Shown here: positions 12,290 through 44,100 of the stretch, piece after piece
Layout of the letters: each line of letters starts with the position of its first letter
Numbering within the stretch: position 1 is the stretch's first letter
Assembly (NCBI RefSeq): GCF_019679435.2
Contig: NZ_CP139781.1
Location: 930,001 to 994,000 of the forward strand
Origin: Actomonas aquatica
GTDB taxonomy: Bacteria > Verrucomicrobiota > Verrucomicrobiia > Opitutales > Opitutaceae
Direction of reading: 5' to 3'
Length of the DNA stretch: 64,000 nucleotides
Program-made: the position numbers and the translations under genes
Notes under the pieces: model-generated
Told to the model about the DNA's origin: nothing
Database searches by the model: none
The model's input: only the letters and a program-made list of their open reading frames with translations

Positions 12290-13111
12290 ATGCCTGCCAC
12301 CACCCTCGCGTCCGCAAACCGGTTGCCCAGCCTGTGGCAATCCCGCGACCTGCTGTGGCAATTCACCCAGCGTTCCATCGAGCTGCGTCATCGCGGCAGT
12401 CACCTCGGCTTGGCGTGGTCGTTTGTCCAACCGCTCCTCATGCTCGGCCTCTATGTGGTCGTGTTTGGGTTCATTTTTGATGGCACCTTCGGCGTCCTGC
12501 CCGACGAGTCCCGCGTCGACTACGCCCTCGGCATTTTCCTCGGCCTTACCCTCTTTCATTTCATCGCCGAGACCTTCTCGGTCGCTCCGACCGTGATCGT
12601 CGGAAACCCCAATTTCGTGAAGAAGGTCGTCTTCCCGCTCGGCATCCTGCCGGCGTCCACCGTAGGCACCGCCGCCTTTCACCTGCTCATCAGCTTGGGC
12701 CTCGTTTTCATCGGCGTCATTTTCTTCGGCGAGGGCCTGAGCTGGAGCGCACTGTGGCTGCCGTTGATCCTAATCCCCATCATTTTCCTCGCCCTGGGCG
12801 TCACCTATGCGGTCTCGGCCTTGGGCGTATTCTGGCGCGACCTCCAACAGCTCACCCAGTTCACAACGCTCGCACTCATGTATGCCAGCGCCATCTTCTT
12901 CCCGGCTTCCAAGGTGCCGCCGTCGATCTGGATGTTCCTGCGCTTCAACCCGCTGCTGTTGGCCATCGAACTCTCCCGCGACGTGCTCCTGTGGCACCGC
13001 CCGCTCAATTGGCACCATCTCGTTTACCTTTGGTTCGCCAGCCTGCTGACCTTCTTCATCGGCCGTTGGGTCTTTGAACGACTCCGCCCGGCATTTGCCG
13101 ATGTGCTCTGA
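12290..13111 (+). CDS. wzm: Wzm, polysaccharide ABC-2 type permease
   Basis: A 273-residue inner-membrane protein with six predicted helices, the channel half of an ABC exporter for O-polysaccharide or similar undecaprenyl-linked glycan. 'LLWQFTQRSIELRHRGSHLG' is the amphipathic interface helix and 'LGLAWSFVQPLLMLGLYVVV' the first membrane segment, both signature features of the Wzm/TagG/KpsM group; the later 'ALGVFWRDLQQLTQFTTLAL' and 'FNPLLLAIELSRDVLLW' are also family hallmarks. The ATG at 12290 is preferred because earlier in-frame residues are not membrane-like and overlap the divergent promoter. It is followed after 7 bp by its ATPase. Confidence 0.95.
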   Translation: MPATTLASANRLPSLWQSRDLLWQFTQRSIELRHRGSHLGLAWSFVQPLLMLGLYVVVFGFIFDGTFGVLPDESRVDYALGIFLGLTLFHFIAETFSVAPTVIVGNPNFVKKVVFPLGILPASTVGTAAFHLLISLGLVFIGVIFFGEGLSWSALWLPLILIPIIFLALGVTYAVSALGVFWRDLQQLTQFTTLALMYASAIFFPASKVPPSIWMFLRFNPLLLAIELSRDVLLWHRPLNWHHLVYLWFASLLTFFIGRWVFERLRPAFADVL

Positions 13112-13118
13112 TTCCCCC

Positions 13119-14609
13119 ATGAGCGAAGCCCCATTGGTCATCGCCGCCCACGGCATCGGCAAAGCCTACCGCATCTGGGAATCTCCCGGTGCCCGCCTCT
13201 CCGCCGCCTTCTGGCAGGGACTAGATCGGCGCATCCCCGGCCAAAACGGCCCCCTCAATCGCGCTCTGGCCGAACGCGCTCGCCGCGGGTTTCGCGACTT
13301 CCACGCCTTGCAGGATATCGAGCTCGAAGTGCGCCGCGGTGAGAGCGTCGGCATTATCGGCCGCAATGGTTCCGGCAAATCCACCCTGCTTCAAATCATC
13401 GCCGGCACCCTCCGCCCCTCGACCGGCGATGTGGCCGTGCAAGGTCGTGTCGCCGCCCAACTCGAGCTCGGCGCGGGCTTCAACCCGGAGTTCTCCGGTC
13501 GCGAAAACGTCTACCTCTACGGTGCAGTGCTCGGTCTCGATCGAGCCGCCATGGATGCCAAATTTGATGAGGTCGCGTCCTTCGCCGATATCGGCGAATT
13601 TTTGGAGGAACCGGTAAAAACCTACTCCAGCGGCATGATGACCCGGCTCGCGTTTGCCGTGAGCACCTGCGTCGAACCCGAAGTGCTCATTATCGACGAA
13701 GCACTCAGCGTGGGCGACGCACCCTTCCAGGCGAAGTGCTTCCGCCGCCTGCGCAAACTCATCGATGAAGGAGTGAGCCTACTGTTCGTGTCCCACGACC
13801 TCGCCACGGTCCGTTCCGTCTGCTCGCGTGCCCTCTGGCTCAAGGACGGTCGCACCGCCGCGTGGGGCGACGCCAAGACGGTTTGCCGCGAATACGAAAA
13901 GTTCTGTTGGCGCGAACAGGGGATCAACTTCGACGACGACGGCCCCTCCGGCGGCTCCGCCAAAGCCCAGATCCTCGCCGGCGCGAAGTCGGACGGCGAA
14001 TCCACAGACGAGGAGCCCGTCGGAGATGCGGAGGAGGCCGCGCCCGCCCTCTCCCCCATCGATAAACTGCTCGATTCGGCCGCAGCCGATTTCGCCCAAC
14101 GCGCCTCCGAAGCCGGTCGGGTCGGCACCGGCGTCGCCCGCTTCGACAGCTGCGTGCTCACGGCCACGAACGGTGAGTTGATTCAGCGCGTCGATTTCGA
14201 GCAGGAGGCGGTCTTCCACACCCGGATCACCGCGCGAGAAGCCATCGATTCGGACATCGTGATCGGACTCGCGATTTTTAACGTCAAAGGCGAGCGCATC
14301 GCCGGCGTGCAAAACGTCCACGAGGAATTGCGCCTCAAACTCGCAGCTGGCGAGAGCACCTACGCGTCGGTGCAAATGCGTTTCCCTTTCACCCACGAAA
14401 AATACGCCGCCCGTCTCACCTTGATGGGCTTTCAAGACGGCGATCGCACCGTCAACGGCATCTACGACTTCAATCGCAGCATCATCTTTGATCAGGTGAC
14501 CGACGCGTTGTTTTTTGAAGTGCAGCTCCACGCTCCCTTCCCGATTGGCCCCGCCGTGTGCTTGCCCGCTCACATCACGCTGAGCTCAACCCCGCCCGCC
14601 TTGTCATGA
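13119..14609 (+). CDS. wzt: Wzt, polysaccharide ABC transporter ATPase with C-terminal glycan-binding domain
   Basis: A 496-residue ATPase of the O-antigen exporter. The nucleotide-binding domain (about 1-270) has Walker A 'GRNGSGKST' at about 81-89, signature 'YSSGMMTRLAFA', Walker B 'VLIIDEALSVGD' and H-loop 'FVSHD'. A linker rich in Glu/Ser/Ala leads to a C-terminal beta-sandwich (about 340-496) of the Wzt_C type ('GVARFDSCVLTATNGELI', 'ITAREAIDSDIVIGLAIFN'). In E. coli O8/O9a this domain recognises the modified non-reducing end of the finished chain, so its presence predicts a terminal-cap signal, and the next gene is a candidate capping enzyme. An alternative ATG at 13101 overlaps wzm; 13119 matches the family start better. 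Confidence 0.95.
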   Translation: MSEAPLVIAAHGIGKAYRIWESPGARLSAAFWQGLDRRIPGQNGPLNRALAERARRGFRDFHALQDIELEVRRGESVGIIGRNGSGKSTLLQIIAGTLRPSTGDVAVQGRVAAQLELGAGFNPEFSGRENVYLYGAVLGLDRAAMDAKFDEVASFADIGEFLEEPVKTYSSGMMTRLAFAVSTCVEPEVLIIDEALSVGDAPFQAKCFRRLRKLIDEGVSLLFVSHDLATVRSVCSRALWLKDGRTAAWGDAKTVCREYEKFCWREQGINFDDDGPSGGSAKAQILAGAKSDGESTDEEPVGDAEEAAPALSPIDKLLDSAAADFAQRASEAGRVGTGVARFDSCVLTATNGELIQRVDFEQEAVFHTRITAREAIDSDIVIGLAIFNVKGERIAGVQNVHEELRLKLAAGESTYASVQMRFPFTHEKYAARLTLMGFQDGDRTVNGIYDFNRSIIFDQVTDALFFEVQLHAPFPIGPAVCLPAHITLSSTPPALS

Positions 14610-17098
14610 GCATTGGCCCCTCTCGCCCAGATTACGGTCCAGCGCTGCACGCGATGATCGCGCGGATCGATGCCGAGCTGGGTTCTCCGGCTCAGCCCAG
14701 TCGCCAACTCACCACGGCCCCGGCCGCTCCCACGTCTCGTTCTTGGCGCCAGCTTGAAGAAGCGGCCGAGCGCTTCGCCGCCGCCTGGACCTCGCGGCGC
14801 GATGGCTTGGGCTCTTTCAAGCGTATCGGACGTGCCACCATCGAGGCCGACAACACCGTCGTCGCCACCACCAAACCGTGGGAGTTCCAAGGCTGGCTCC
14901 CCTTCGCTTCCCGCCGCGTTTTGCGACTCAACGGAGCATTGGCCGAGGTTGAATTGGAGGTCACCCAAGGTGAAGTGGGCATCGCGATCCTGGCGGACGA
15001 CGGCTCCCAATTTGTCGGCAAACGCTACGTCGCCACTGTCGGTCGCCACCAGCTGCAGCTGCCGATCCGCAGCGACGAGGTGAAAGGCATCGTTTTTTGC
15101 AGCACGGATGCCGTCGAGACGCCGGCGCGTTTTTGCATCCGACGCACCGCCCTCCTCAAGATCGATCCGGAATCACCCGCCGCCCAGCACTTGCGGGAAC
15201 AGTTTCTGGCCGCCGGCAATCCACCGCCCGAAACGGATGACCCCGACGCGGTTCCGGCGACCGTGCCGCTGGTGCTCTTCCATCTCCTCGGTCAGGGCAA
15301 ACTGCACGCCGTGCGTGCCCTGCTTCACGCGGCGCGCCAACTTACTGGCGACACGCCCGCTTGGTTCCCGGCCCGACTCAGCGAATTGTTGCAACAATTC
15401 GACGGCCTCAAAGATCGCGGCGACCAGCCGACTGCGGTCCCGCCCGCCACCACCACGCCCACGCCTTCGACTTCCCCCGAACCAACCGAGCGAGCCGCCG
15501 CAGAGCTACTCGCCCTGCGTCACCTCACGACCGGGGCAGACCTCGTTCCACTCCAGCTCGAGTTGCTGGAATTCGGCTTCACTTTGGACCTCATCGGCAG
15601 CGTCCACGCCAAACCGCTGCAGTTCACTTGGCAGCGTCAGGCGCTCGCCTCGACCCTCGTGCCCCGCGGTCTGCTCGCGTCGTTGCTGGCCGTCATTGGT
15701 GACCGCCTCCGCGGCGACCTCCAATCGCTGCGCGTCGAAGCTTCGACCACGACCACCGGCACCGAACTCTGGCTGCACAGCGATCTTGCCCACGGCGACC
15801 TCCAGTATCGCGACTTCACCGGCAATGCCGCCGCACTGCACCACCACCTCAACGATCCCCGCTGCGCCTCCCCGCGCCTGGAACACCGCTTGGGTGAGGA
15901 AAACGCCATCGGCCTGATCTGGCCGGATACCAACGAAGAGGCCGACCTCCCCGATCTGAGTTGGACCGCAGGAGACGATGTTGCTGCGACCACGCAACTT
16001 TACATCGGGCAAAACGGCGGCGAGATCCGGCGACGCGGCGGCCTCTGCTACAAACTCTCGCCCACCGAATCCACCAAGCCCAACGACTTGGTCGACGAAG
16101 CGAAACTGTCCCGCCAACTCGCGGAACTCGATTTTGTGGTCCCGGTGCTCAGCGCGCATCGCTGGCCCGAGGGTTCGGCCATGTCCTATCCCTTCCAAGC
16201 GGGCACCACCTTGGCCCAGGCAGCCTTGGACGCCACTCCCGCCCCCGTCGACCAACCTGCCATCATTCGTCAGGTCACCGACGCCTTGGTGGAGCTCAAC
16301 CAGCGAGGTATCCAGCACCGCGACGTTCGCGCCGAAAACATCCTGCTGCGTCCCGACGGCACGATCGTGGTGCTCGACTTCGACCAAGCCCGCCCCCACG
16401 CGGACGCTGACGACTTCGGCAACGAATGGGATGCCGAGGCGGTGTGCGCTGGCTTTGGCGGTATGCTGCGACAACTGCACTGGGAGCGCGACTATCTCGC
16501 CACCGCCGGCCAACTCGGTTTCGCGTGGGAACTCGGCCGTCACTCCGCCGCCAATTCCCCCGGCAAACACGCCTGCTACTACGCTTGGCGCTGGGGTCCC
16601 CTTGCCCTCGAGGGTGAGCGCCCGTGGTCGCTGCGCTGGCAGCTGTTGCGCCCGGCTTTCCGCCGCGAAGGCGTGGCCCCTGGACGCTTTCTCGAGCTTG
16701 GTGCCAATCTCGGCCTGCTCTCCACCTATGCTTCGTTGGAAGGCTGGGAAGCCCGCGGCATCGAGCGTGATGGGGTCGCCGTCACCGCCGCCCAGCGCAT
16801 CGCCGCCACCCTCGGCGCGTCCTCCCAATTCTCCCGCGGTGACCTTACCTCGCCGGCCCTTTTCGCGGACCTCGACGACACCTACGACATGGTTTCGGCC
16901 CTTTCAGTCGTGCACTGGCTACCCGACCCTGCCCCGGTCGAGGCCTTCCTCCGCCGTCAGCCCCGCCTTCTCTTCGAAGGCCATCGCGCCATTGCCGACG
17001 AAGAAGCTTACCTTCACGAATTGGGCTTCGAAACCGTTAGCCTCCTCGGTTATTCGGAAAGATTACGTCCGATTCTACTAGCGACTCGCGCGTCCTGA
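14606..17098 (+). CDS. Kinase-like plus methyltransferase protein, WbdD-like with reversed domain order
   Basis: An 830-residue protein whose ATG overlaps the wzt stop. Residues 1-~260 form an unrecognised N-terminal part containing a predicted beta-sandwich; a Pro/Thr-rich linker follows near 290, then a region of unknown fold to about 460. From about 475 to 640 there is a protein-kinase-like fold: candidate Lys483 in 'GLCYKLS', catalytic 'HRD' at 571-573 with the downstream Asn in 'HRDVRAEN', and 'DFD' at 591-593 replacing DFG. The C-terminal ~150 residues are a class I SAM methyltransferase ('LELGANLG' at 696-703, 'DMVSALSVVHWL'). WbdD of E. coli O8/O9a caps O-antigen by phosphorylation and methylation and is encoded with Wzm/Wzt, but has methyltransferase first, kinase second, then a coiled coil. 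A chain-terminating role here is inferred from this content and position. Confidence 0.75.
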   Translation: MSIGPSRPDYGPALHAMIARIDAELGSPAQPSRQLTTAPAAPTSRSWRQLEEAAERFAAAWTSRRDGLGSFKRIGRATIEADNTVVATTKPWEFQGWLPFASRRVLRLNGALAEVELEVTQGEVGIAILADDGSQFVGKRYVATVGRHQLQLPIRSDEVKGIVFCSTDAVETPARFCIRRTALLKIDPESPAAQHLREQFLAAGNPPPETDDPDAVPATVPLVLFHLLGQGKLHAVRALLHAARQLTGDTPAWFPARLSELLQQFDGLKDRGDQPTAVPPATTTPTPSTSPEPTERAAAELLALRHLTTGADLVPLQLELLEFGFTLDLIGSVHAKPLQFTWQRQALASTLVPRGLLASLLAVIGDRLRGDLQSLRVEASTTTTGTELWLHSDLAHGDLQYRDFTGNAAALHHHLNDPRCASPRLEHRLGEENAIGLIWPDTNEEADLPDLSWTAGDDVAATTQLYIGQNGGEIRRRGGLCYKLSPTESTKPNDLVDEAKLSRQLAELDFVVPVLSAHRWPEGSAMSYPFQAGTTLAQAALDATPAPVDQPAIIRQVTDALVELNQRGIQHRDVRAENILLRPDGTIVVLDFDQARPHADADDFGNEWDAEAVCAGFGGMLRQLHWERDYLATAGQLGFAWELGRHSAANSPGKHACYYAWRWGPLALEGERPWSLRWQLLRPAFRREGVAPGRFLELGANLGLLSTYASLEGWEARGIERDGVAVTAAQRIAATLGASSQFSRGDLTSPALFADLDDTYDMVSALSVVHWLPDPAPVEAFLRRQPRLLFEGHRAIADEEAYLHELGFETVSLLGYSERLRPILLATRAS

Positions 17099-17116: not shown

Positions 17117-19111
17117 GTGCCTGCCTCCTCCGATTTCGGCTTCCTTCGCATCGCCACCGTCTGCCCTGAGCTACGCGTGGCCGATGTCGTGTTCAACCTC
17201 GACCAACACCACCGCTGCCTCGCCCAGGCCGCCGCCGCCGGTGCCCGCCTCGTCCTCTTCCCCGAACTGAGTCTCACCGGCTACACCTGTGGCGATCTCT
17301 TCGCCCAGCAACTGCTCCGCACCACCGCCCGCGAAGCCCTCTGTGCTTTGGCCGAAGCCACTGCCGAGATCCCCGCCTTTGCTTTGGTTGGCCTCCCCTT
17401 TCTGGTCGACGACCGCCTCTACAACTGCGCCGCCCTTATCGGCGACGGTCGCGTCCTCGGACTCGTGCCCAAGACCTTCCTGCCCAACACGCAGGAGTAT
17501 TACGAGCAACGTTGGTTCACCAGCGCCGAGCGCCTGCGCGTCGACACCGTCGAGCTCGCCGACGACTATGTGGCGATTTCGCCTTCGCTGCTCTTCAACG
17601 ACATCACCACCGGTGCCTGCATCGGCATCGAGATTTGCGAGGACCTTTGGACTGCCAGCCCGCCCAGTGGCCAGCTGGCTCTCGCCGGCGCCAATCTCAT
17701 CCTCAACCCCTCCGCCAGCGACGAACTCCTCGGCAAGGCCCCCTACCGCCGCGACTTGGTCAAACAACAGTCTGCGCGCTGCCTCGCCGCTTACGCTTAC
17801 GCCAGCTCGGGTCCCGGTGAGTCCTCGACCGATGTCGTGTTCTCCGGCCACTGCCTCATCGCCGAAAACGGCGCCCTGTTGAGCGAGTCGAAACGCTTCC
17901 AGTTCGAGTCCCAGATCCAATGCGCGGACATCGACATCCAGCGTCTCTCTCACGAGCGCATCATCAATAGCTCCTATTCGAGCGCAGTCGCGACCCTCAC
18001 GCCGGATCGCATCAAAATTGCCCTGCCCGAGGCAAAAACGCCGACGAAGAAGCAACCGCAGGCCCCGTTGGGCACCCTTCGCCCGAACCCCGCGCGCCCC
18101 TTTGTCCCGTCCGATTCCGCCATCCGCGCCGACGCCTGCCGCGAGATCTTCGCCATCCAGTCCACCGGCCTCGCCAAACGCCTGCGCCACACCGGCGCGC
18201 GCAAAGTCGTGATCGGCATCTCCGGCGGACTCGATTCCACCCTCGCCCTCCTGGTGACGGCACACGCCTTCGACCTGCTCGGACTCGACCGCGCCGGCAT
18301 CATCGCGCCCACCATGCCGGGCTTTGGCACCACCAAACGCACCCGCGGCAATGCCGAAAAACTCGTCGAGCAACTCGGCGCCACCCTGCGCATCATCCCC
18401 ATCGGCGACAGCGTGATGCAGCACTTCAGCGACATCGGACACAACCCGGAGTCACACGATGTGACTTACGAGAACGCCCAGGCTCGCGAGCGCACCCAAA
18501 TCCTCATGGACGTGGCCAACCAGGTGGGCGGATTTGTCGTCGGCACCGGTGACCTGTCCGAATCCGCCCTCGGCTGGTGCACCTTCAATGGCGACCACAT
18601 GTCGATGTATCACGTGAACGCCAGCGTTCCGAAAACCCTCGTGCGTTACCTCATCGACTGGGCCGCCGAAGCCGAGTTTTCCGGCGCCACCACCGCCGTG
18701 CTGCACGACATCGCTGACACCCCGATCAGCCCAGAACTGCTGCCGATGGGCGCAAATGACGAGATCTTGCAACAGACCGAGGACGTCGTCGGTCCCTACG
18801 AACTGCACGACTTTTTCCTCTTCCACTTCCTCCGCCACGGCGCCCCGCCGGCCAAAATCCTCTACCTGGCCGAGCTCGCATTCGGGAAACGCTACTCCCG
18901 CGCCGTGCTGCTCAAGTGGCTCGAAACCTTTGCCCGACGCTTCTTTGCCCAACAGTTTAAGCGCTCGGCCATGCCGGACGGCCCCAAGGTCGGCTCGGTC
19001 GCCCTCTCCCCGCGCGGCGACTGGCGCATGCCCTCCGATGCCTCCAGCGCCACCTGGCTCGCGGAGATCGAATCGCTTAAGCCGGCAAAATCTCGCGCAA
19101 AGCGCCGTTGA
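17117..19111 (+). CDS. nadE: NadE, glutamine-dependent NAD+ synthetase
   Basis: A 664-residue two-domain enzyme that makes NAD+ from nicotinic acid adenine dinucleotide, using ammonia released from glutamine. The N-terminal nitrilase-type glutaminase has the full triad Glu50 ('FPELSLTGY'), Lys119 ('VPKTFLPN') and Cys174 ('IEICEDLW'). The synthetase domain has the PP-loop 'SGGLDST' beginning at residue 369, '[12 protein letters not shown]' and the '[18 protein letters not shown]' segment of the NadE family. The start is GTG at 17117. It follows the kinase-methyltransferase gene after 18 bp, so it may share that transcript, although its role is housekeeping. Confidence 0.96.
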
Positions 19112-27601: not shown

Positions 27602-29275
27602 ATGACCCAATCTGCGTTCGAACCTTACCTGTCCGTAGTCTGCGCCTCGCGCAACGACGACCACGGCGGCGACCCCCTCATCCGCACCCAAATTTTCGTC
27701 AACTGCCTGGCGCGCCAATGCGAAGCCCTGCAGCTGCCGACCGAACTCATCATCGTTGATTGGAACCCCGTCGCCGGTCGCCCCGGCCTCGCTGGCGTTC
27801 TGCAGCTCCCGGAGGGCTCCACCTACTGCCGCGGCCGCGTCATCACCGTCCCGACGGAGCTGCATCGCCGCTACAAGTATTCCGAAAAGCTGCCGTTCCT
27901 GCAGATGATCGCCAAGAACGTCGGCATCCGTCGCGCCAAGGGCCAATTCGTCCTCGCGACCAACATCGACATCATCTTCTCCGCCGAACTGATGGCCTTC
28001 ATCGGCAAGCAGCGCCTCGACCCGTCCAAAATGTATCGCGTCGACCGCTACGACATCAAAGCCGGCATCCCCCTCGACTTCACCCTGGAGCAGACGCTCG
28101 ACTACGCGTGGAAGAACCCCCTGCGCAACAACCGTCGCTTTGGCCCCGCCGCCGTCGTCGAACACCTCTACGGCGACAATCCGCACCGCAAGGAGTGCAT
28201 CCCCAACCCGGATTTCTTCGAAACCGTGCATGGTTTTGAGGCCATCCAGCACGACGGCGCCTGGCTCATCTGCCCGCAGCGTGACACCCTCATGGGCGAG
28301 ATTCACACCAACGCCTGCGGCGACTTCACCCTGCTCGCCCGCGAAGCTTGGGAGCAAATCGCCGGCTACGCCGAGTTCGCCAGCTACTCCTTCAACATCG
28401 ACAGCGTCGGCGTTTATGCCGCCCATTACGGCGGCTTCGAGGAGGTCTCGTTGTTGCCGCCGTGCGTGTGCTTCCACATCGAGCACAGCCTCGGCTCCGG
28501 CTGGACCCCGGAAGGCGAAAAGAAGCTTTTCGAGCGCCTCAACAACGCCGAAATCCTCAATCCCGAGTGGCCCGTGCTCAACGACCTCATTGAGCAGATG
28601 AAGGTCAGCGACGCGCCCATACCCCTCAACGACGCTGAGTGGGGCCTCGCCCCCTTCGAGTTGCCGGAGGAGCCGATCGAAGTGGGCGCCTTTCACGCCT
28701 CTCCCGATCATCCGTGGCCCCAGCAGGACTGGCCGCCCGCCTCCGTCAGCGCGATCAAACCGGGCTTCGATCTGGACCGCATGACCCTCTGGTATGAGCG
28801 CAAGCTCGGTGAGGGGCGTTATGGCCGCAAGGATCCGGACCAGACCCACGTGGTGCAGATCTTTGTTCCCGACGCCAACAACGCTCACTCCGAGGAACGT
28901 TGCTTCAACCTCGAGACCCACCTCGATGGCGACGAAACCCACTACGTCGCCATCGACGACTACTTCCCCGGCACCACCCTGCGCTTCGATCCGGCTTACA
29001 AGCCCGGTATCATTGAGATCCACGATTTCACGATCATGGAGCCTCAAAGCGGCCGAGTCCTCTGGAGCATTCAGGACTGTGCCAAAGCCCGCCTGGGCGT
29101 CTGGGGCACCACCCGCGTGCTCTCTTCGCCGCCTGACTCGGCAAATGAACTGCGCCTGCTGGTCAACGGCTGGGATCCCCAGCTCTGGCTGCCGCCGCTG
29201 CCCACGCACCAACAATCCATCATGGTGCGCTTTCGCATGACGCACCTCCCCTACTCGCGGTTCGAGGCACAGTAA
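27602..29275 (+). CDS. GT-A (GT2-like) glycosyltransferase with C-terminal beta domain
   Basis: A 557-residue protein starting at ATG 27602 ('MTQSAFEPYLSVVCASRNDD'). The N-terminal ~300 residues look like a divergent GT-A domain: 'LSVVCASRNDDHGGD' at strand 1, 'ELIIVDWNPV' at the uridine-binding strand, and 'FVLATNIDIIFSAEL' where the DxD motif would be, read here as N-I-D. From about 370 to 557 the pattern is beta-rich with many Trp and Asp ('RMTLWYERKLGEGRYGRKDP'), suggesting a carbohydrate-binding sandwich. It belongs to the surface-glycan cluster and begins the G/C-rich block right of the cassette. Donor and acceptor are unknown; the divergent DxD lowers certainty on activity. Confidence 0.7.
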   Translation: MTQSAFEPYLSVVCASRNDDHGGDPLIRTQIFVNCLARQCEALQLPTELIIVDWNPVAGRPGLAGVLQLPEGSTYCRGRVITVPTELHRRYKYSEKLPFLQMIAKNVGIRRAKGQFVLATNIDIIFSAELMAFIGKQRLDPSKMYRVDRYDIKAGIPLDFTLEQTLDYAWKNPLRNNRRFGPAAVVEHLYGDNPHRKECIPNPDFFETVHGFEAIQHDGAWLICPQRDTLMGEIHTNACGDFTLLAREAWEQIAGYAEFASYSFNIDSVGVYAAHYGGFEEVSLLPPCVCFHIEHSLGSGWTPEGEKKLFERLNNAEILNPEWPVLNDLIEQMKVSDAPIPLNDAEWGLAPFELPEEPIEVGAFHASPDHPWPQQDWPPASVSAIKPGFDLDRMTLWYERKLGEGRYGRKDPDQTHVVQIFVPDANNAHSEERCFNLETHLDGDETHYVAIDDYFPGTTLRFDPAYKPGIIEIHDFTIMEPQSGRVLWSIQDCAKARLGVWGTTRVLSSPPDSANELRLLVNGWDPQLWLPPLPTHQQSIMVRFRMTHLPYSRFEAQ

Positions 29276-29303: not shown

Positions 29304-30608
29304 GTGATTCCCTGCATCCATCCAACGTCAGTCACGTTGCCCGCCGCCTGTTCCACACCTGCCCTTCTGCACCACCTCGACGCGCCCGCCTCGTGGCACG
29401 ACCTGCCGCGTCGCGTCCTGGTGCGGGGCTGGGTTTTCGCTCCCGGCGCCGCCCCGTTGCAGGCCGTGCGCGCCCGTGTCGGCGGCACCTTGATCAGCGG
29501 AAACGTCGGCTTTCATCGCCCGGATGTGAAGGCGGCGTATCCAGATGCCCCCGACGACTACACCGGCTTCCAGATCGCGATCGAAACGCCTCGCGGCCGC
29601 TTCCCGCTGGAGCTCGAAGCGCTCACCGCCGGCGGCGAATGGTGGTCCTTTCTGGAGCTGGAGGCGCATGGGAAGCCCAGGCGTCGCCCTTACATCTTCG
29701 GCGCCGATTCCCCCGAGGAACTACTGGCCGGACAACTTGCCCTGCAACCACGCCACCCGCCGCGTCCGTTGCAGCCGGAGCACTTTCCCGCCGTCCATCT
29801 CGCGCCGGGCACGAGCCTGCCCGTCGTCGATATCGTCACCCCCAACCTCAATCAAGGTCGTTGGCTCCCGGCCGCCGTAGCCAGCACCGCCGGACTCGAC
29901 GGCGTGCGCCACACCGTGCGTGACGGTGGCTCCACCGATGGTTCGGTCGAGTGGCTGCGGGAGTCTGCTTCATCGCTCCATTCGTGGGTCAGCGAAAAGG
30001 ACGATGGCCAGGCCGACGCGATCGCCCGGGGCCTCGCCGCTACCGCCGGGGAGCCCGAGGACCTCATGGCCTGGATCAATGCCGACGATCATTACCTGCC
30101 CGGCGCGATCGAGTTCGTGCGCCGCTATTTTGCGGCTCACCCCCGGGTCGATGTCATTTATGGCAACCGCGTGATGGTGGACGAAGACGGTGCGGAAGTT
30201 GGCCGTTGGCACCTGCCCCCGCATAACGACGATGTGCTGAAGCTCTACGATTTTGTCCCGCAGGAGACCCTCTTCTGGCGGCGTCGTATATGGGATCAGG
30301 TCGGCGGCATCGACCCGACCTTCCAGTTCGCGCTCGATTGGGACCTGCTGCTTCGCTTTCAAGCCGCCGGCGCTCGCATCGAGCACCTCCCCCGATTCCT
30401 CGGCGCCTTTCGCCTGCATGCCGCGCAGAAATCTTCCGCCGCCATCGGCAGCACCGGCCAGGCCGAGCTGGATGCTCTGCGTCGCCGCACCTTCGGACGG
30501 GATCTCGCTCCGTCGGAGTTAATCGAATCCTCGTTCATCAACCGCTACCTCCGCCGAAGCGCGCGCCGCGAACTCGCCGCCCGTTTCGGTCTGCGCCCGT
30601 CCCTTTAA
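29304..30608 (+). CDS. GT2 glycosyltransferase with N-terminal 'GW/RPDV' module
   Basis: A 434-residue protein with a GTG start at 29304. Residues 30-130 form a beta-rich module: 'VLVRGWVFAPG', 'GFHRPDVKAAYP', 'YTGFQIAI' and 'FPLELEAL'. The same pattern occurs in the GT at 33227 and in both giant enzymes (41132, 45233). The GT2 domain starts near 175 with 'VDIVTPNLNQGRWLPAAVAS' and carries 'RDGGSTDGSVEWL', 'EKDDGQADAIARGLA' and the metal-binding 'WINADDHY', as in WcaA-like enzymes of exopolysaccharide synthesis. 'ETLFWRRRIWDQVGGID' is the acceptor-side hallmark. Predicted inverting, cytoplasmic; sugar unknown. Confidence 0.85.
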   Translation: MIPCIHPTSVTLPAACSTPALLHHLDAPASWHDLPRRVLVRGWVFAPGAAPLQAVRARVGGTLISGNVGFHRPDVKAAYPDAPDDYTGFQIAIETPRGRFPLELEALTAGGEWWSFLELEAHGKPRRRPYIFGADSPEELLAGQLALQPRHPPRPLQPEHFPAVHLAPGTSLPVVDIVTPNLNQGRWLPAAVASTAGLDGVRHTVRDGGSTDGSVEWLRESASSLHSWVSEKDDGQADAIARGLAATAGEPEDLMAWINADDHYLPGAIEFVRRYFAAHPRVDVIYGNRVMVDEDGAEVGRWHLPPHNDDVLKLYDFVPQETLFWRRRIWDQVGGIDPTFQFALDWDLLLRFQAAGARIEHLPRFLGAFRLHAAQKSSAAIGSTGQAELDALRRRTFGRDLAPSELIESSFINRYLRRSARRELAARFGLRPSL

Positions 30609-30614
30609 CGCCTT

Positions 30615-31781
30615 ATGCCTTCTCCCCGCTTTCTTGTTGTTGGTGCCGGTTTCTCCGGAGCCGTCATTGCTCGCGAATTGGCCACCCACACCGGTGCACA
30701 GGTCGACGTCATCGACAGCCGTCCGCACATCGCCGGCAACTGCCACACCGAGCGCGACGCCTCCACCGGCGTGATGGTGCACATCTACGGTCCCCACATT
30801 TTTAATACGCAACGGCAGGACGTTTGGGACTACGTGAATCGCTTCGCCACCTTCGGCCCCTACGTGAACCGGGTGAAGGCGCACACCCCGCGCGGCGTGT
30901 ATTCGCTCCCCATCAACCTGCTCACCATCAATCAGTTTTTCGGCCGCGATTTCAGCCCCGCCGAAGCCCGGGCCCACCTCGCCTCCCTCGGCGACCACTC
31001 CATCACCGAACCGCAAAATTTCGAGGAGCAGGCCCTGAAGTTTCTCGGCCGGGAGCTCTACGAAAACTTCTTTCACGGCTACACCGTAAAACAGTGGGGC
31101 TGCGACCCCAAGGACCTGCCTGCCTCCATCCTCAAGCGACTGCCGGTCCGCTTTAACTACGACGACAGCTACTTCAACTGCCTCCACCAGGGCATTCCGC
31201 TCGACGGCTACACCGCGCTCATCGAGGGCATCTTCGACGTATCCGGCGTCAATGTTCGCCTGAGCACGACCTTTGAGCCCGGCATGGCGCGCGACTACGA
31301 CCACGTCTTCTACACCGGCCCGCTCGATGCCTACTTCGGCCACCAACATGGTCGCCTCGGTTACCGCACCGTCACCTTCGACCGCTTTGAAGCCGAGGGC
31401 GACATTCAGGGCAACGCCGTCATCAACTACACCGACGCCGCCGTGCCCTTTTCGCGTATCCACGAGCACAAACACTTCACGCCCTGGGAAACGCACGAAC
31501 GCTCCGTCGCCTTTCGCGAGTATTCCAAGGAAACCGAAGCCGCCGACATCCCCTATTACCCCAAGCGTCTCGTCGCCGACCTCGACCTGCTACGCACCTA
31601 CGCCGACCTCGCCGCTCAGCAAACTGGCGTCTCTTTCGCTGGGCGCCTCGGCACCTACCGCTACCTCAACATGGACCAGGTCGTCGGTGAATCCCTCGAC
31701 TTCGCCGCCCGCTGCGTCACCGCCCTTGCCCAGCGCCAGCCGCTTCCCCTATTTTCCGCCCCTCCATTGCCCCCCGCCTGA
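30615..31781 (+). CDS. glf: Glf, UDP-galactopyranose mutase
   Basis: A 388-residue flavoenzyme that contracts UDP-galactopyranose to UDP-galactofuranose. The FAD-binding 'VVGAGFSGAVIARELA' is at 8-23, followed by 'IAGNCHTERD', the conserved 'YGPHIFNT' (substrate-loop His), 'FHGYTVKQWG', 'PVRFNYDDSYFN' and 'RLGTYRYLNMDQVVGESLDF' at the C-terminus, all of them mutase family hallmarks. Its presence predicts galactofuranose in the glycan made by this locus, so at least one neighbouring GT should be a galactofuranosyltransferase. It is 6 bp after the GT2 gene and 3 bp before the next. Confidence 0.96.
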   Translation: MPSPRFLVVGAGFSGAVIARELATHTGAQVDVIDSRPHIAGNCHTERDASTGVMVHIYGPHIFNTQRQDVWDYVNRFATFGPYVNRVKAHTPRGVYSLPINLLTINQFFGRDFSPAEARAHLASLGDHSITEPQNFEEQALKFLGRELYENFFHGYTVKQWGCDPKDLPASILKRLPVRFNYDDSYFNCLHQGIPLDGYTALIEGIFDVSGVNVRLSTTFEPGMARDYDHVFYTGPLDAYFGHQHGRLGYRTVTFDRFEAEGDIQGNAVINYTDAAVPFSRIHEHKHFTPWETHERSVAFREYSKETEAADIPYYPKRLVADLDLLRTYADLAAQQTGVSFAGRLGTYRYLNMDQVVGESLDFAARCVTALAQRQPLPLFSAPPLPPA

Positions 31782-32507: not shown

Positions 32508-33230
32508 ATGGCAGATTCGCCCGCATCGTCCTCCGAAGCTTCTCGTCCCGCCGACGAGAATCTGGTCACGACCTTGCGTCGCGAAATCGTCGCCGCCGAA
32601 CTGCAGATTCTCGAGCTCAATGACCGTCTCGCGGCCAAGGACACCGACCGCGCCGACGCCGTCGCCCTGCTCGGCCAAGCCGAACTCGTGCTCGAGGAAA
32701 AGATCGGCTACATCATGACGCTCGACCAGGCGCTCAACACGCGTATCCGCGAACTCGAGCAGGAGTGTGATCGCAAGACCGCCGAGATCGACCGTCGCGG
32801 CGAAGCCCTCCAAGCGGCCCACGCGGCCGACGAGCGCAATCGCGCCGAACGCGACGCGGTCATCAAAGACCTGAGCGAACGTCTCGAAGCCGCCAATCAG
32901 GAGATCAACCGCGCCCACGAACTGGCCCGCGACTACGCTGAAAAGTTCAACGGCGCCGAACAGGCGCTCGCGGCGACCAAAGCCGAACTCGCCGCGACCA
33001 CCGAGCAACTCACGCAGACCCAAACGAAGCTCACCACTCGCGACGCCGAGCTCGCCGACGCCCTCGCCCGCATCGAAGCCCTTTCCGCTCAACTCAACGA
33101 CACGACCGTCCGTCTCTCCACCTCCGAGGAAACCCTCGCCGCCGAACGCGGACGCCTGCACACCATATTTCACTCCACGCTGTGGCGCTGGGGTCGGCCG
33201 TGGCGTGCGCTCTTCGGCCCCAAGCTATGA
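32508..33230 (+). CDS. Coiled-coil protein in glycosyltransferase cluster
   Basis: A 240-residue protein that is almost wholly predicted coiled coil from about 20 to 215: Glu, Lys, Arg and Ala dominate, Leu/Ile/Val recur at heptad spacing, and Pro is absent from the core. It ends with an aromatic, basic tail 'LWRWGRPWRALFGP', a type of ending often seen on coiled-coil proteins and glycosyltransferases of O-antigen loci, probably a membrane-surface anchor. No enzyme motif is present. Its stop overlaps the next GT4 gene's ATG (ATGA). A structural or chain-length role is suggested by analogy with the coiled-coil ruler of WbdD, which the WbdD-like protein here seems to lack; this is inference. 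Confidence 0.75.
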   Translation: MADSPASSSEASRPADENLVTTLRREIVAAELQILELNDRLAAKDTDRADAVALLGQAELVLEEKIGYIMTLDQALNTRIRELEQECDRKTAEIDRRGEALQAAHAADERNRAERDAVIKDLSERLEAANQEINRAHELARDYAEKFNGAEQALAATKAELAATTEQLTQTQTKLTTRDAELADALARIEALSAQLNDTTVRLSTSEETLAAERGRLHTIFHSTLWRWGRPWRALFGPKL

Positions 33231-35227
33231 GTGTCGCCCCGCCCGAGATCGCCCACGGGCTGGAGACCCCGTATCCGCTGCAGCCGTGCCAGAACTATTT
33301 TCGGCTCGAGGGCTGGGCTCTCCTCCGGGGCGGCGCCGCCCCGACCATCGCCCGTATTCGGATCGGCGATACCACCCATGCGCCCGAATCCACCTCCCGC
33401 CGCGACGACGTGCAGTCGCTGTATCCAGAAGATGAATTCGCCGCCAACACCGGGTTCCTCTTCGTCATTTACCTGCCTTTCGGCAACCACCTCGCGACCC
33501 TCGAAGCCAGCAACGACGGCGGTGACACCTGGCACCCCGTGCGCAGCATGATGGTGCCGGTCAGCTCCCATCCGCTGATGGGCGCCTTCGAACCCGCGGG
33601 CACCAACGGCCTCATCACCGAGACTTGCCGCCCGACCGGTTGGGTGTGGCACCCCGAATTCGAGATCGCGCACATCGAACTCCTCTTCGGCAACATGGCC
33701 CTGCCCGTGGAAACCGGACTGGAGCGACCCGACGTGGCCGAGCGTTTTCCTGACCAACCCGGCGCCCGTTACAGCGGATTCCTCCTCGCCGAGAATCTGC
33801 CCCGCGGCAAGGGACCGATTCGCCTACACGTCACCACGTCCTGCGGCCGCACCTACTTTCTCGATCCGGCCTATTCGGCCAAACTGCCGAACGGCGCATA
33901 CGCTCCGCCGCGCCCACCGCCCGACATGTGGGAGCTGCCACCGGTGGATCGAGCCGGCACCGGTGCCTCAACACCTCTGCCTGCCGCGCCCGACCCGGCC
34001 GGCCCGCACAACGTGCTCTTCGTGCTCTACGGCGATTTTACCTCCAACAGCGCCGCCCACGTTTGCGCCTTGGCCGACGAACTCATCGGTCACGGCTATG
34101 ACTGTATCGTCGCGGTCCCGGAGCATGCCGAAACCATCGGTGCACAAGGCCGCACCCGCTTCCTGGCCATCGAATACCCCGATCTCCCGAATCTGGCGTC
34201 CTATTACCGGGACAGTCGCGGCCCCGCGGTGATTCACGCCTGGACCACTCGCGAGCGCGTCCGCCTCTTTTGCGCCGAAGCCCAGACCCGTTTCGACTGC
34301 GACTTGATCCTGCACCTTGAGGACAACGAACGCGAACTCCTCGCCAATCACCTGAACTGCTCTCTGGAGGAACTGGAAACCCTCCCTGCCGAGGACCTGG
34401 ATCAACGCGTGCCGCTCGACCTGACCCACCCTCTGCGCGCCAGCCAATTTATGGCCTCCGCCCAGGGCATCACCGTGATCATCGATCGTCTGCGTGAATT
34501 CGTTCCTGCTGACGTCCCGTCGACCGAGATTTGGCCGGCAGCGTTACCAACCTTCGCCCCCCGGCCACTCGATCACACCTTTCGCCGCACCCTCGGTATC
34601 GCTGATTCGGATACCGTCCTTTTTTATCACGGCAACGCCCACGCCTCCAACGCACCGGAGATGCTCGAGCTGCACCGTGCCGTGCTGCAGCTCAACGAAG
34701 CCGGCCACCGCACCTGGCTCCTTCGCACTGGCCGCAATTCCCCGGACTTCGAGCGGCTCCTCCCCCCCGCGGTGCGACCGCACTTGATCCACCTCGGCTT
34801 CGTCAAACGCCACCGCGACCTGCCCCGCTTCATGGCCATGGCCGACGTCTTCGTGCAACCCGGTCAGGCCGGCAGCTTCAACGACTACCGCTTCCCCTCC
34901 AAACTGCCCGAGTTCTTTGCCCTCGGTCGTCCCGTGATTCTGCCACGGTCCAATCTGGGCCACACCGTCCAGCACCTCCGCGACGCCTACGTGCTGGAGG
35001 ACGCCAACGCCGCCACCATTGCCGCCGCCGTGATGGAGTTGACGGCCTCGCCAGAACTCACCGCCTCCCTGTCTCAAGGCGCCATCGCCTTCGGACAAAA
35101 ACACTTCTCGTGGCCCCGTTCAGCGCAGCGTCTGATCGACTTTCTGCTTCAGCACACCCGTCTGAAGGCCCCCGACGACGCCCGCCAACGCGCCGCCCGC
35201 GCGGTCTCCGCCGCCGCTGCAGATTAA
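33227..35227 (+). CDS. GT4-like glycosyltransferase with two N-terminal 'GW/RPDV' modules
   Basis: A 666-residue protein; ATG 33227 overlaps the previous stop. Residues ~20-120 ('YFRLEGWALLRGG', 'RRDDVQSLYPED', 'TGFLFVIYLPFG') and ~125-235 ('CRPTGWVWHPE', 'LERPDVAERFPDQP', 'YSGFLLAENLPRG') are two copies of the accessory module seen in neighbouring transferases. A GT-B region starts near 265 ('HNVLFVLYGDFTSNSAAHVC') and ends with 'ADVFVQPGQAGSFNDYRFPS' and 'LPEFFALGRPVILP', which occupy the donor-site position; the usual E-x7-E is replaced by 'FNDYRFPSKLPE'. Predicted cytoplasmic retaining transferase. Confidence 0.8.
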   Translation: MSVAPPEIAHGLETPYPLQPCQNYFRLEGWALLRGGAAPTIARIRIGDTTHAPESTSRRDDVQSLYPEDEFAANTGFLFVIYLPFGNHLATLEASNDGGDTWHPVRSMMVPVSSHPLMGAFEPAGTNGLITETCRPTGWVWHPEFEIAHIELLFGNMALPVETGLERPDVAERFPDQPGARYSGFLLAENLPRGKGPIRLHVTTSCGRTYFLDPAYSAKLPNGAYAPPRPPPDMWELPPVDRAGTGASTPLPAAPDPAGPHNVLFVLYGDFTSNSAAHVCALADELIGHGYDCIVAVPEHAETIGAQGRTRFLAIEYPDLPNLASYYRDSRGPAVIHAWTTRERVRLFCAEAQTRFDCDLILHLEDNERELLANHLNCSLEELETLPAEDLDQRVPLDLTHPLRASQFMASAQGITVIIDRLREFVPADVPSTEIWPAALPTFAPRPLDHTFRRTLGIADSDTVLFYHGNAHASNAPEMLELHRAVLQLNEAGHRTWLLRTGRNSPDFERLLPPAVRPHLIHLGFVKRHRDLPRFMAMADVFVQPGQAGSFNDYRFPSKLPEFFALGRPVILPRSNLGHTVQHLRDAYVLEDANAATIAAAVMELTASPELTASLSQGAIAFGQKHFSWPRSAQRLIDFLLQHTRLKAPDDARQRAARAVSAAAAD

Positions 35228-41131: not shown

Positions 41132-44100
41132 ATGTTCGAGAACGACTTTTGCCGATACTTCATCGATGAGCCGATTGATTGGAATCTATCCCAAGAAATC
41201 GTCGATATCCGCGGATGGGTATTGGCCAAGAGTGGTGAAGAGATCGTCGACCTGCGCGCCCGCCTCGATGGCGTGATCTTCTACGGCATCATCGGCCTGC
41301 ATCGCCCGGACATTCGCGACACCTTCGACGCCGGCGCCCCGGGCCTCAAATCCGGTTTCCGCGTCAACGTCCGCCCTTGGATCGGCGCCCGCCAACTCGC
41401 CCTCGAGGGCATGCTGCGCGACGGCTCCTGGGTCGAGTTCTGCCAGCGCGACGTGACCGTCACCGGCGACAAGGTGCCCCCGGCCCAGCCCAAGCCCTAC
41501 GTGCGCTCCGAGGTGCTGGAGGAGTCCCTTTACTACCTCTACCGCCATTTCCACTTCGAGAGCAGCACCCAGCTCCGCGCCGAAGCCCGCCGCGTGCTCG
41601 CCGAGATCTCCGTCAACCAGACCGAGATGCTCCCCGAAAACGACCTCATCGGCTACCTCGACCTGCCCGACTTCTGGATCAACGCCCACTACGAGAAGTT
41701 CCGCGTCTCCGGCTGGGCCTTTTCCAAGGACCAAACCATTTCCCGGCTCCACGCCACCATCGGCAACGTCGACGAAAACCGCCTCGTATGGGGCAAGGAG
41801 CGCGACGACGTTCTCGCCCACAACCCCGGCTACCCGCAGGCGCTCAAGTCCGCCTACTACGGTCTGGTCGACGTCCGTCCCGATTCCTTCAGCCCGGCCT
41901 GCCTCAAGATCTGGGTCGACTACCCCGACCAGCCCCGCCAGCTCCTCCGCTCCAAGCGCCTCTTCGTCAACAAACTCGACGAAAACTCCGGCCCCATCCC
42001 TTACTACAGCCACTTTCAGTTTGTTCGCGTCATGCTCGCCTTCGTCCGCGAGCTGCGTCGCGGCGGCTACGAACTCGAGAGCTGGTCCGACCTCTGGGAG
42101 GCCATGCGCCGCACCCGCGCCAAGCTGGCCGACAAGATGGTGCGCGGGGGCAAAAAGGCCAACACCCCGCCGCCTCCCACCCCGTGGGAACGCAAGGAGC
42201 CCTACGATCTGTGGTTCCACCACAACCGCCTCACGCCGCGCCTGCTCAAGTTCCTCGCCGAGACCGCCAAACCCATCTCCGCGCGCGGTCCCAAAATTTC
42301 CATCGTCGTCCCCACCTACAACACGCCGGCCAAGTTCCTCGATGAGCTCATCGCCTGCGTGAAGGCCCAGGTCTACACCAACTGGGAACTCTGCATCGCC
42401 GACGACAATTCCCCGCAAAAGCACGTCGTCAAAAAACTCGCCGCCGCGGCCGCCGCCGATTCGCGCATCAAATATGTCGTGCGCAGCGAAAACGGCCACA
42501 TCTCCGCCGCCACCAACAGCGCCTTGGAGCTGGCCACCGGTGAATACGTCAGCTTTCTCGACCACGACGACCTGCTCCCGGCCGACGCCCTCCTCCACGT
42601 CGCCGAAGCCATCCTCGAACACCCCGCGGCCGACTTCCTCTACACCGACGAGGACAAGATCGATGCTTCCGGCCGCCACTACGACCCGCAGTTCAAGGGC
42701 GAGTGGAATCCCGAGATGGCCATCACTCACAACTACACCCACCACCTGCGCACCATCCGCCGCAGCGTCATCGAAAAGGTGGGCGGCCTGCGCGTGGGCT
42801 ACGAGGGAGCCCAGGACATCGATCTCATCCTGCGCTGCGTTGAGCACATCGACGACGCCAACATCCGCCACGTTCCGTTCGTCTGCTACCACTGGCGCGC
42901 CCACGAGGAATCCACCGCCCAGCGCGGCGACCAAAAGGGTTACCTTTTCGACGCCGCCCGCCGCGCCATTGCCGATGCCGTCGAACGCCGCGGTCACCGC
43001 GCCGAGGTGTTCATCCCCGGCCATCTCGAGGAAAACGCCCTCTGCCTCCACCAACTCAAGTGGTCGCCCGAGCTCCTTGCCGAGAACCCGGTCACCATCG
43101 TCATCCCGACCCGCAATCAGGCCAAGATCCTTCAGGCTTGCCTCGATTCCCTCGAACGCACGGTCAACTGGGATCACACCAAACTCATCGTCGTCGATGA
43201 CGGCTCCGACGAGAGCGACGCCCAGACCCTGCTCGCCCGCGTCGAGACCCGCGAGGACCGCCCGTGGCGCGTCCTGCGCCCGATCCGCGGCCAGGACGGT
43301 GAGTTTAACTACTCCCGTCTCGTCAACCTCGGCACGAACGCCGCCGACACGCCGCTCGTCCTGCACCTCAACAACGACATCGAGGCGCTCGAACCGGGTT
43401 GGTTGGAGGACATGGTCGGCTGGATGTCCGTCAACGGCGTCGGCGTCGTCGGCGCCCGCCTGATCCACCGCGACGAGACCCTCAACCACGCCGGCATCTG
43501 GGTCGGTCCCAACGGCGGCCTCGCCCACGGCATTTTTGTCGGCCTGCCCAAGGACGACTTTGGTTACCTCTTCCTGCCGCACGCCGCCCGCGACACAACC
43601 GCTGTCACCGGCGCCTGCCTGCTCACCCGCACGGACCTCTACAACCAGCTAGGCGGCTTCGACGAGAAGGACTTCTGCGTCGCCTACAACGACGTCGACT
43701 ACTGCATGCGCGCCCTCCGCGCCGGCTACCGCACCGTCTACTCGCCGCAGGCCACGCTCATCCACCTCGGCTCCGCCACCCGCGGCATCAGCTACACCGA
43801 GAAGGAGCACCTCGCCTTCGTCCAAAAGTATCCGGGATTCCGCGATCCGCACTTCAGCGAGTCGGTCGAATACGCCAATCCGTCCTTCCGCATCAACGCC
43901 TACGACCACCGCCACGCCTCCCGCCCGCTCAAGCTCCGCGTCGCCGTCGTTTCTCACAACCTCAACCTCGAGGGCGCGCCGCTCTTCATCGTCGAATACG
44001 CCAAGCACCTCCAACACGTCGCCGGCTGGGACGTGAAAGTCATCGCGCCCATGGAAGGTCCGCTGCGCGAGAACTTCACCGCCATCGGCCTGCCGCCCGA

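Follow-up and report, generated by a model that had tools for sequence, protein, structure and literature searches.

A kinase-methyltransferase protein encoded directly after wzm and wzt in Actomonas aquatica, a candidate glycan-capping enzyme

Analysis of a 64,000-nucleotide stretch of the Actomonas aquatica genome (contig NZ_CP139781.1, positions 930,001 to 994,000; hereafter the window) revealed a gene at 14606-17098 (+ strand) whose 830-residue product combines a kinase-like domain with an S-adenosylmethionine (SAM) methyltransferase and is encoded directly after the polysaccharide exporter genes wzm and wzt. Judged from sequence, there is about an even chance that this protein caps the polysaccharide exported by Wzm/Wzt and was assembled from common folds independently of the terminator WbdD. 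Its kinase domain would phosphorylate the finished chain at its non-reducing end, the methyltransferase domain would then methylate that phosphate, and the C-terminal domain of Wzt would read the cap and admit the chain to export. A separate coiled-coil protein (32508-33227) may set chain length as a partner, and it is proposed in this role because the 830-residue protein has no coil of its own.

This capping role is favoured because the gene overlaps a wzt of the Wzt_C type and holds the slot of wbdD in Escherichia coli HS, the kinase residues are complete and a kinase fold was recovered, H770 of the methyltransferase aligns with H132 of WbdD, and other modifying enzymes follow wzt in related clusters.

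Domain layout of the 830-residue protein

The gene is an open frame of 830 codons plus stop, with the ATG and the wzt stop overlapping in the sequence ATGA. Upstream of it, wzm (12290..13111, + strand) encodes an ABC-2 type permease of 273 residues (PF01061, E 6.3e-21), and wzt (13119..14609, + strand) a 496-residue protein formed by an ATPase (PF00005, E 1.2e-22) and a C-terminal carbohydrate-binding domain, with the Wzt_C domain at about residues 334-469 (PF14524, E 5.6e-9, above cut-off). Eighteen bases separate the stop of the gene from the frame of the NAD synthetase gene nadE (17117..19111, + strand; PF02540, E 2.1e-27, and PF00795, E 3.7e-18), which borders the wzt slot downstream. The order within the protein is N-terminal region, kinase and methyltransferase. 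No coiled coil was found in it by a simple heptad scoring of our own, in which it scored low; its longest run free of proline and glycine is 24 residues, so that a coil of ruler length is impossible. Frame, motifs and neighbours thus bear out what an earlier note on this DNA had described, namely a single kinase-methyltransferase polypeptide directly after wzm and wzt, the presence of the Wzt C-terminal domain, and the absence of a coiled coil.

The kinase domain (about residues 470-654; 16013..16567, + strand) was delimited by a Pfam match, a fold search and a motif check. The last of these found all the catalytic residues, K483, E498, H571 and D573 (H571-x-D573), N578 and D591, confirming K483, H571, D573 and D591 of the kinase-like domain that the earlier note had recognised by K483, HRD at 571-573 and DFD at 591-593. 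E498, absent from that residue list, is invariant across an eight-row alignment and fits the alpha-C glutamate. The Kdo/WaaP kinase family PF06293 scored 26 bits versus a cut-off of 21.3 and was the sole kinase family above its Pfam cut-off, with PF00069 remaining below its own (28.8 versus 31.7 bits).

An AlphaFold2 model of residues 456-830, based on an eight-row alignment with six rows of protein kinases, recovered a kinase fold, whose absence the earlier note had named as grounds for refuting its proposal. Its mean predicted local distance difference test (pLDDT) was 60. Ten-residue blocks of the kinase scored mostly 79-92, many of them 83-92 and a few 56-68; the final 80 residues ranged from 62 to 88, and the stretch 146-292 in model numbering stayed mostly below 50. 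The top Foldseek match was the kinase of the lanthipeptide synthetase CurKC (E 2.0e-8), for which the VIA comparison gave Z 14.6 and a root-mean-square deviation of 4.7 with 176 aligned, many protein kinases lying within 1 of that score. The model backs the kinase fold but cannot rank kinase families, because protein kinases make up six of the eight rows aligned. WbdD (structures 4AZS and others) was not among the best 50 rows of the fold search, a list that kinases filled and that barely probed the methyltransferase half, so its absence is no argument against a shared fold.

As the closest kinase matches in both sequence and fold are protein kinases and the kinases of lanthipeptide synthetases, the protein could also be read as a fusion of a regulatory protein kinase with a methyltransferase whose target is a protein partner, such as Wzt or a glycosyltransferase, rather than a sugar. 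We consider this unlikely: the alignment behind the model consists mostly of protein kinases, among kinase families, only that of the lipopolysaccharide kinases (PF06293) passes its Pfam cut-off, and the fusion to a methyltransferase lies within a polysaccharide cluster.

The methyltransferase domain (residues 655-830 and stop; 16568..17098, + strand) presents the landmarks GERPW (670-674), LELGANLG (696-703) and H770. Four Pfam methyltransferase models matched the 830-residue protein at E 1.5e-5 to 2.9e-3, all of them below cut-off. Its assignment to the class I methyltransferases is supported by 37% identity over about 170 residues to a relative of 452 residues (L073/L087), in which four Pfam methyltransferase models exceed cut-off, and it upholds the SAM methyltransferase previously read at LELGANLG.

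The N-terminal region (residues 1-469; 14606..16012, + strand) matched no Pfam family to E 10, in agreement with the earlier note, which had left an N-terminal region of ~460 residues unassigned, and gave a single chance-level match in NCBIfam (E 0.17). No match to it was detected beyond its own genome across 387 genomes of the phylum. A single-sequence model (mean pLDDT 38) contained a low-confidence beta-rich stretch at residues 100-166 (pLDDT 46-61, lower elsewhere). A degenerate HATPase domain of LytS-type histidine kinases, seen by eye at about residues 295-460, was rejected at the sequence level: a profile of six LytS-type kinases from the same genome gave residues 191-475 a score of -1.6 bits, within the range of 200 shuffles, and searches of Pfam, NCBIfam and PDB sequences with the segment returned nothing. 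The same segment had matches at E 0.006-0.7 in 13 of 56 other genomes, and the five of them that were aligned look like chance. Our guess is that these 469 residues bind the glycan or a partner.

Comparison with WbdD and other terminators

WbdD (E. coli O9/O9a, Klebsiella pneumoniae O3) also joins a kinase and a class I methyltransferase in one polypeptide encoded directly after wzm-wzt. However, WbdD is organised as methyltransferase, kinase and coiled coil with a membrane-proximal tail, whereas the window protein consists of an N-terminal region, kinase and methyltransferase, with no coil. For the comparison we used the genes of E. coli HS, in the order wzm, wzt, a gene for 708 residues that bears only the annotation of a class I methyltransferase, and wbdA. 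The third of them was taken as WbdD because its length, its position and its methyltransferase, kinase-like and coil-type matches agree, 708 residues being the length stated for WbdD in PMC3482155.

A BLASTP alignment between the window protein and this WbdD reached E 0.002 for 59 residues of the catalytic loop, and a weak further piece (E 0.59) placed H770 opposite H132 of WbdD, a residue whose mutation abolished phosphate methylation in vitro according to the account in PMC3482155. With hhalign, the kinase aligned to WbdD at 95% probability over 75 columns, with a profile made mostly of ordinary kinases, and the methyltransferase at 77% over 93 columns. Searches were also run among 6,578 open reading frames (ORFs) from all the compared loci, a set enriched in kinases and methyltransferases since many loci were fetched with these queries. 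In this set, neither the kinase nor the methyltransferase part of the window protein retrieved WbdD at E ≤ 1, and with the parts of the 452-residue relative it ranked 46th (kinase, E 0.0009) and 19th (methyltransferase, E 0.1). In the reverse searches from WbdD, the window protein was not among the best 12 rows.

These comparisons bear on whether the gene is a true descendant of wbdD with permuted domains, a possibility that the earlier note had raised beside an independent origin. The two domain kinds, the shared slot and the hhalign probabilities speak for descent. Nevertheless, WbdD does not rise above ordinary kinases and methyltransferases among the 6,578 ORFs, no transitional form was seen and there is no coil, so that permutation finds no support and we regard it as very improbable. 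Independent assembly fits better, because neither domain is detectably closer to WbdD. From the earlier proposal of chain capping in the manner of WbdD, what stands is a kinase and a methyltransferase in WbdD's slot beside a Wzt with a carbohydrate-binding domain, and what lacks support is descent from WbdD; it is reasonable to say that the protein works like WbdD, and the functional analogy is plausible.

Two other kinds of kinase-methyltransferase offer further comparison. The terminator ORF6 of K. pneumoniae O7, as presented in PMC11231755, resembles the window protein in being a methyltransferase-kinase pair of non-WbdD type in an ABC-dependent O-antigen cluster, and in carrying an extra domain, which is like a carbohydrate-binding module in ORF6 and unassigned in the window protein. 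It differs in having the methyltransferase first, an AmiN-like kinase, and coiled-coil and GT2 modules in the same protein. The Lcin_0519 family likewise comprises kinase-methyltransferase proteins, and a Wzt-type ABC transporter occurred together with a glycosyltransferase homologue in 27% of its neighbourhoods analysed (PMC9758233). Compared by the description in that paper, its members commonly have a coiled coil and no recognisable alpha-C glutamate, unlike the window protein, in which E498 fits this position. Among open-licence papers, we found no title or abstract start describing the present layout or a stand-alone ruler, and, among the 15 of 21 papers listed by a single search, no report of methyl-phosphate capping in Verrucomicrobiota.

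Relatives of the module and the place after wzt

Relatives of the methyltransferase part were scarce. It matched 23 of the 387 phylum genomes at E ≤ 0.001, its own included, and the single other strong match (G367; 37% over about 170 residues, E 1.7e-21) is the 452-residue relative mentioned above, also encoded in locus L087 of Verrucomicrobia bacterium isolate casp150-mb.303 (L073 and L087 are one gene). This relative is a stand-alone protein with the kinase followed by the methyltransferase, 31% identical over the module, and its frame has no counterpart of the window's N-terminal region. Its gene sits between a Polysacc_synt_3 flippase gene and a GT4-type gene, with Poly_export (Wza-type) and Wzy_C proteins encoded nearby, and no wzm or wzt was detected by tblastn in the 18 kb around it (best E 0.27 and 0.19). 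As this cluster is of the Wzx/Wzy type, an ABC exporter is not indispensable to the module, whose role may be decoration rather than termination.

Wider searches added no second case. A scan of a genome collection with a two-row alignment returned nine loci, of which only L087 matched past about residue 175 of the 361-residue query. The genome contig collection, searched with the single 830-residue protein, gave no relative of the whole protein or of the N-terminal region, plasmids gave four records matching the kinase part only, and 57 related genomes gave only kinase matches apart from its own. In the class, 39 of 286 genomes matched the module at E ≤ 1e-6, the matches listed all falling in the kinase except its own. 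A methyltransferase profile matched none of 200 genomes at E ≤ 1e-10 and none of 117 at E ≤ 1e-8, both weak zeros from sets with no positive control, and one of 146 at E ≤ 1e-8, the relative already known. Of the seven genomes behind the loci, three matched at E ≤ 0.001, strongly only that of L087. Neither viral contigs nor phages matched the module.

A kinase-first order is not in itself new, as PMC9758233 already describes it for a family comprising Lani_1194 and NoeA. The order can be read there from R38, taken as the equivalent of the catalytic lysine, and about two thousand homologues of the Lani_1194 kinase were considered, 94% of which also have a methyltransferase. The window protein shares with this family a kinase in first place and a methyltransferase in second, and differs from it in the atypical kinase motifs of the family and in its context, which is nodulation factors or unknown (PMC9758233). 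In our set, a frame of about 480 codons (L096 9273-10712, + strand), unannotated in its record, was taken as NoeA of Sinorhizobium meliloti by its place and by its match to the 452-residue relative; Pfam shows only a methyltransferase in it, with a kinase-type motif placed first by eye. The relative matched this frame with phmmer (E 2e-5 in a search of the ORFs at that locus), and its methyltransferase did so at E 0.004, rank 11 among the 6,578 ORFs; the window protein had no phmmer match to it at E ≤ 10.

From these data, a second explanation must be weighed, in which the protein acts in decoration, the role put forward for NoeA and Lani_1194, placing methyl phosphate (or phosphate and methyl separately) on sugars within the glycan or a precursor without ending the chain. 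The kinase-first order, shared with the family in PMC9758233 and with the relative from the Wzx/Wzy-type cluster, is in its favour, as is the absence of a coiled coil from the 830-residue protein. Against it, the gene overlaps and directly follows a Wzt_C-type wzt, which is the wbdD slot, and the similarity to the putative NoeA frame is confined to the relative. We therefore see decoration as a real possibility, with a smaller share of our confidence than capping.

For the capping reading, the genes that occupy the place after wzt elsewhere are informative. We surveyed 60 of the 61 top-scoring Wzt_C places in the class together with some 9 kb of flanking sequence to either side, as far as contigs reached, and a Wzt frame was present in 59 of them. 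In these 60 places and the window, the only ORF with both kinase and methyltransferase motifs was the window's own, and one other place (L126) showed the kinase motif alone. For the window Wzm, in turn, 101 of 165 family genomes, its own among them, gave a match at E ≤ 1e-30. Sixty more Wzm places, which roughly make up the top of this list, were examined together with L129, L133, L138 and the window. In 35 of these 64, wzt was matched on the same strand within the stretch, and in 29 it was not, some stretches being short. Among the ORFs after wzt (up to seven per locus), both motifs were again restricted to the window, and L239 presented the kinase motif alone. Thus, the search for the same domain order beside Wzm/Wzt, which the earlier note had suggested, was carried out and returned only the window's own gene in either survey, with simple motif patterns that can miss atypical kinases.

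The five closest Wzt proteins (L226, L133, L215, L129 and L138) are 71-76% identical to that of the window in the ATPase part and 24-35% in the C-terminal part, a strong divergence that is as expected if each Wzt reads a different chain end. Their genes are followed by different enzymes. In L129, wzt is followed by Methyltransf_24 alone and then an epimerase, with no nadE. L133 carries an FkbM methyltransferase and then Methyltransf_24. L226 has an unassigned gene, a class I methyltransferase and Methyltransf_24, and L215 looks like it by eye, interrupted by the contig end. Finally, L138 presents a weak sulfotransferase match (E 0.15, below cut-off) and an FkbM methyltransferase. The nadE gene lies downstream in the window, L133, L138 and L226. 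From this variety, we infer that the place after wzt is a site of cap chemistry. Separately, an adenosine phosphosulfate (APS) kinase gene (E 1.6e-47) and a CysN-like gene (PF00009) lie between wzm and wzt in L138 (5408-8107), and L226 and L215 appear alike by eye; a sulfated cap or polymer is therefore suggested in those clusters.

Several observations weigh against a capping role. The sole same-layout homologue found belongs to a Wzx/Wzy-type cluster in which neither wzm nor wzt was detected over 18 kb, which goes part of the way toward what the earlier note held would speak against its proposal, namely homologues consistently found away from ABC exporters. The window protein has a tryptophan at the place of H133 of WbdD, and the relative an asparagine at that of H132. 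Neither the kinase nor the methyltransferase could be placed nearer to WbdD than to ordinary representatives; we read this as shared superfamilies, with no special kinship seen in sequence. The Methyltransf_24 proteins of L133 and L129 are 71% identical, yet their Wzt C-terminal domains are only 34% identical; as this domain diverges even where the slot gene is kept, no co-variation between it and the cap enzyme was seen. Lastly, the terminators of the systems reviewed in PMC11231755 carry a coiled coil, and the 830-residue protein carries none.

A separately encoded coiled coil

This last point directs attention to the stand-alone coiled-coil gene at 32508-33227 (+ strand; to 33230 in the feature list), a candidate ruler in trans and a more interesting lead than the kinase-methyltransferase itself. 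Its 240-residue product, which ends in STLWRWGRPWRALFGPKL, had the highest heptad score among 32 genes of the window (0.73), followed by two proteins with 0.46 and 0.43 that look TolC-like and adaptor-like by eye; the same three candidates came top in a scan of all window ORFs. It was the only coiled coil detected among the polysaccharide genes of the window. These values come from a simple heptad measure of our own and not from an established program. The stop of the gene is overlapped by the start of a GT4-type glycosyltransferase gene (33227..35224, + strand; 666 residues, PF13692, E 6.7e-10).

Two other loci, L273 and L276, also have a stand-alone coiled-coil gene directly before an orthologous GT4-type gene (43% and 40% identical to the window's), about 10 kb and 44 kb after wzt, respectively. 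Both coiled-coil proteins contain SRSWRWTAWLR near the end, and the coil of WbdD runs into SRSWRMTKGYRYLG. A pattern of the S-x-x-W-R type, written post hoc after the four sequences had been seen, had 39 matches in the 6,578 ORFs and followed a coil in four of them (WbdD, L273, L276 and the window), with about 0.3 expected. No similarity between the window coil and those of L273 and L276 was detected by tblastn in either direction, so that a kinship of the window coil with them is indicated by position, coil and tail.

In three other genomes, G197, G215 and G1022 (L275, L277 and L280), a coil was found inside a glycosyltransferase of about 1000 residues; G1022 also encodes a shorter orthologue whose tail is charged and coil-like (L279 12112-14094). 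In 40 kb from each, G215 and G1022 showed no stand-alone coil. The window counterpart of the N-terminal part of the 1000-residue protein is encoded at 27602-29272 (+ strand; 62% over 394 residues), with no coil and no Pfam match, while the C-terminal glycosyltransferase domain weakly matches the separate window frame 29802-30443.

A further reading, which we rate well below even odds, is a split terminator, in which the kinase-methyltransferase beside wzt would act with a separate coiled-coil ruler bearing a membrane-proximal S-x-x-W-R tail (32508-33227), and in which related clusters would swap cap enzymes (for methylation, possibly sulfation, and methyl phosphate) around a separately encoded ruler. 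Such a stand-alone ruler would be an exception to the systems reviewed in PMC11231755.

Other polysaccharide genes were observed in the window. Two genes (41132-45106 and 45233-49240, + strand) encode proteins of 1325 and 1336 residues, each with GT2-type and GT4-type glycosyltransferase domains, that are possibly polymerases. A UDP-galactopyranose mutase (PF03275) is encoded at 30615-31778 (+ strand), and therefore the polymer may contain galactofuranose.

In conclusion, if the capping role is true, the protein would join WbdD and the K. pneumoniae O7 enzyme as a further cap enzyme put together independently from a kinase and a methyltransferase, and methyl-phosphate capping would be extended to Verrucomicrobiota. 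If the ruler works in trans, capping and the control of length would be separable and exchangeable, and the ruler model would become directly testable with two genes.

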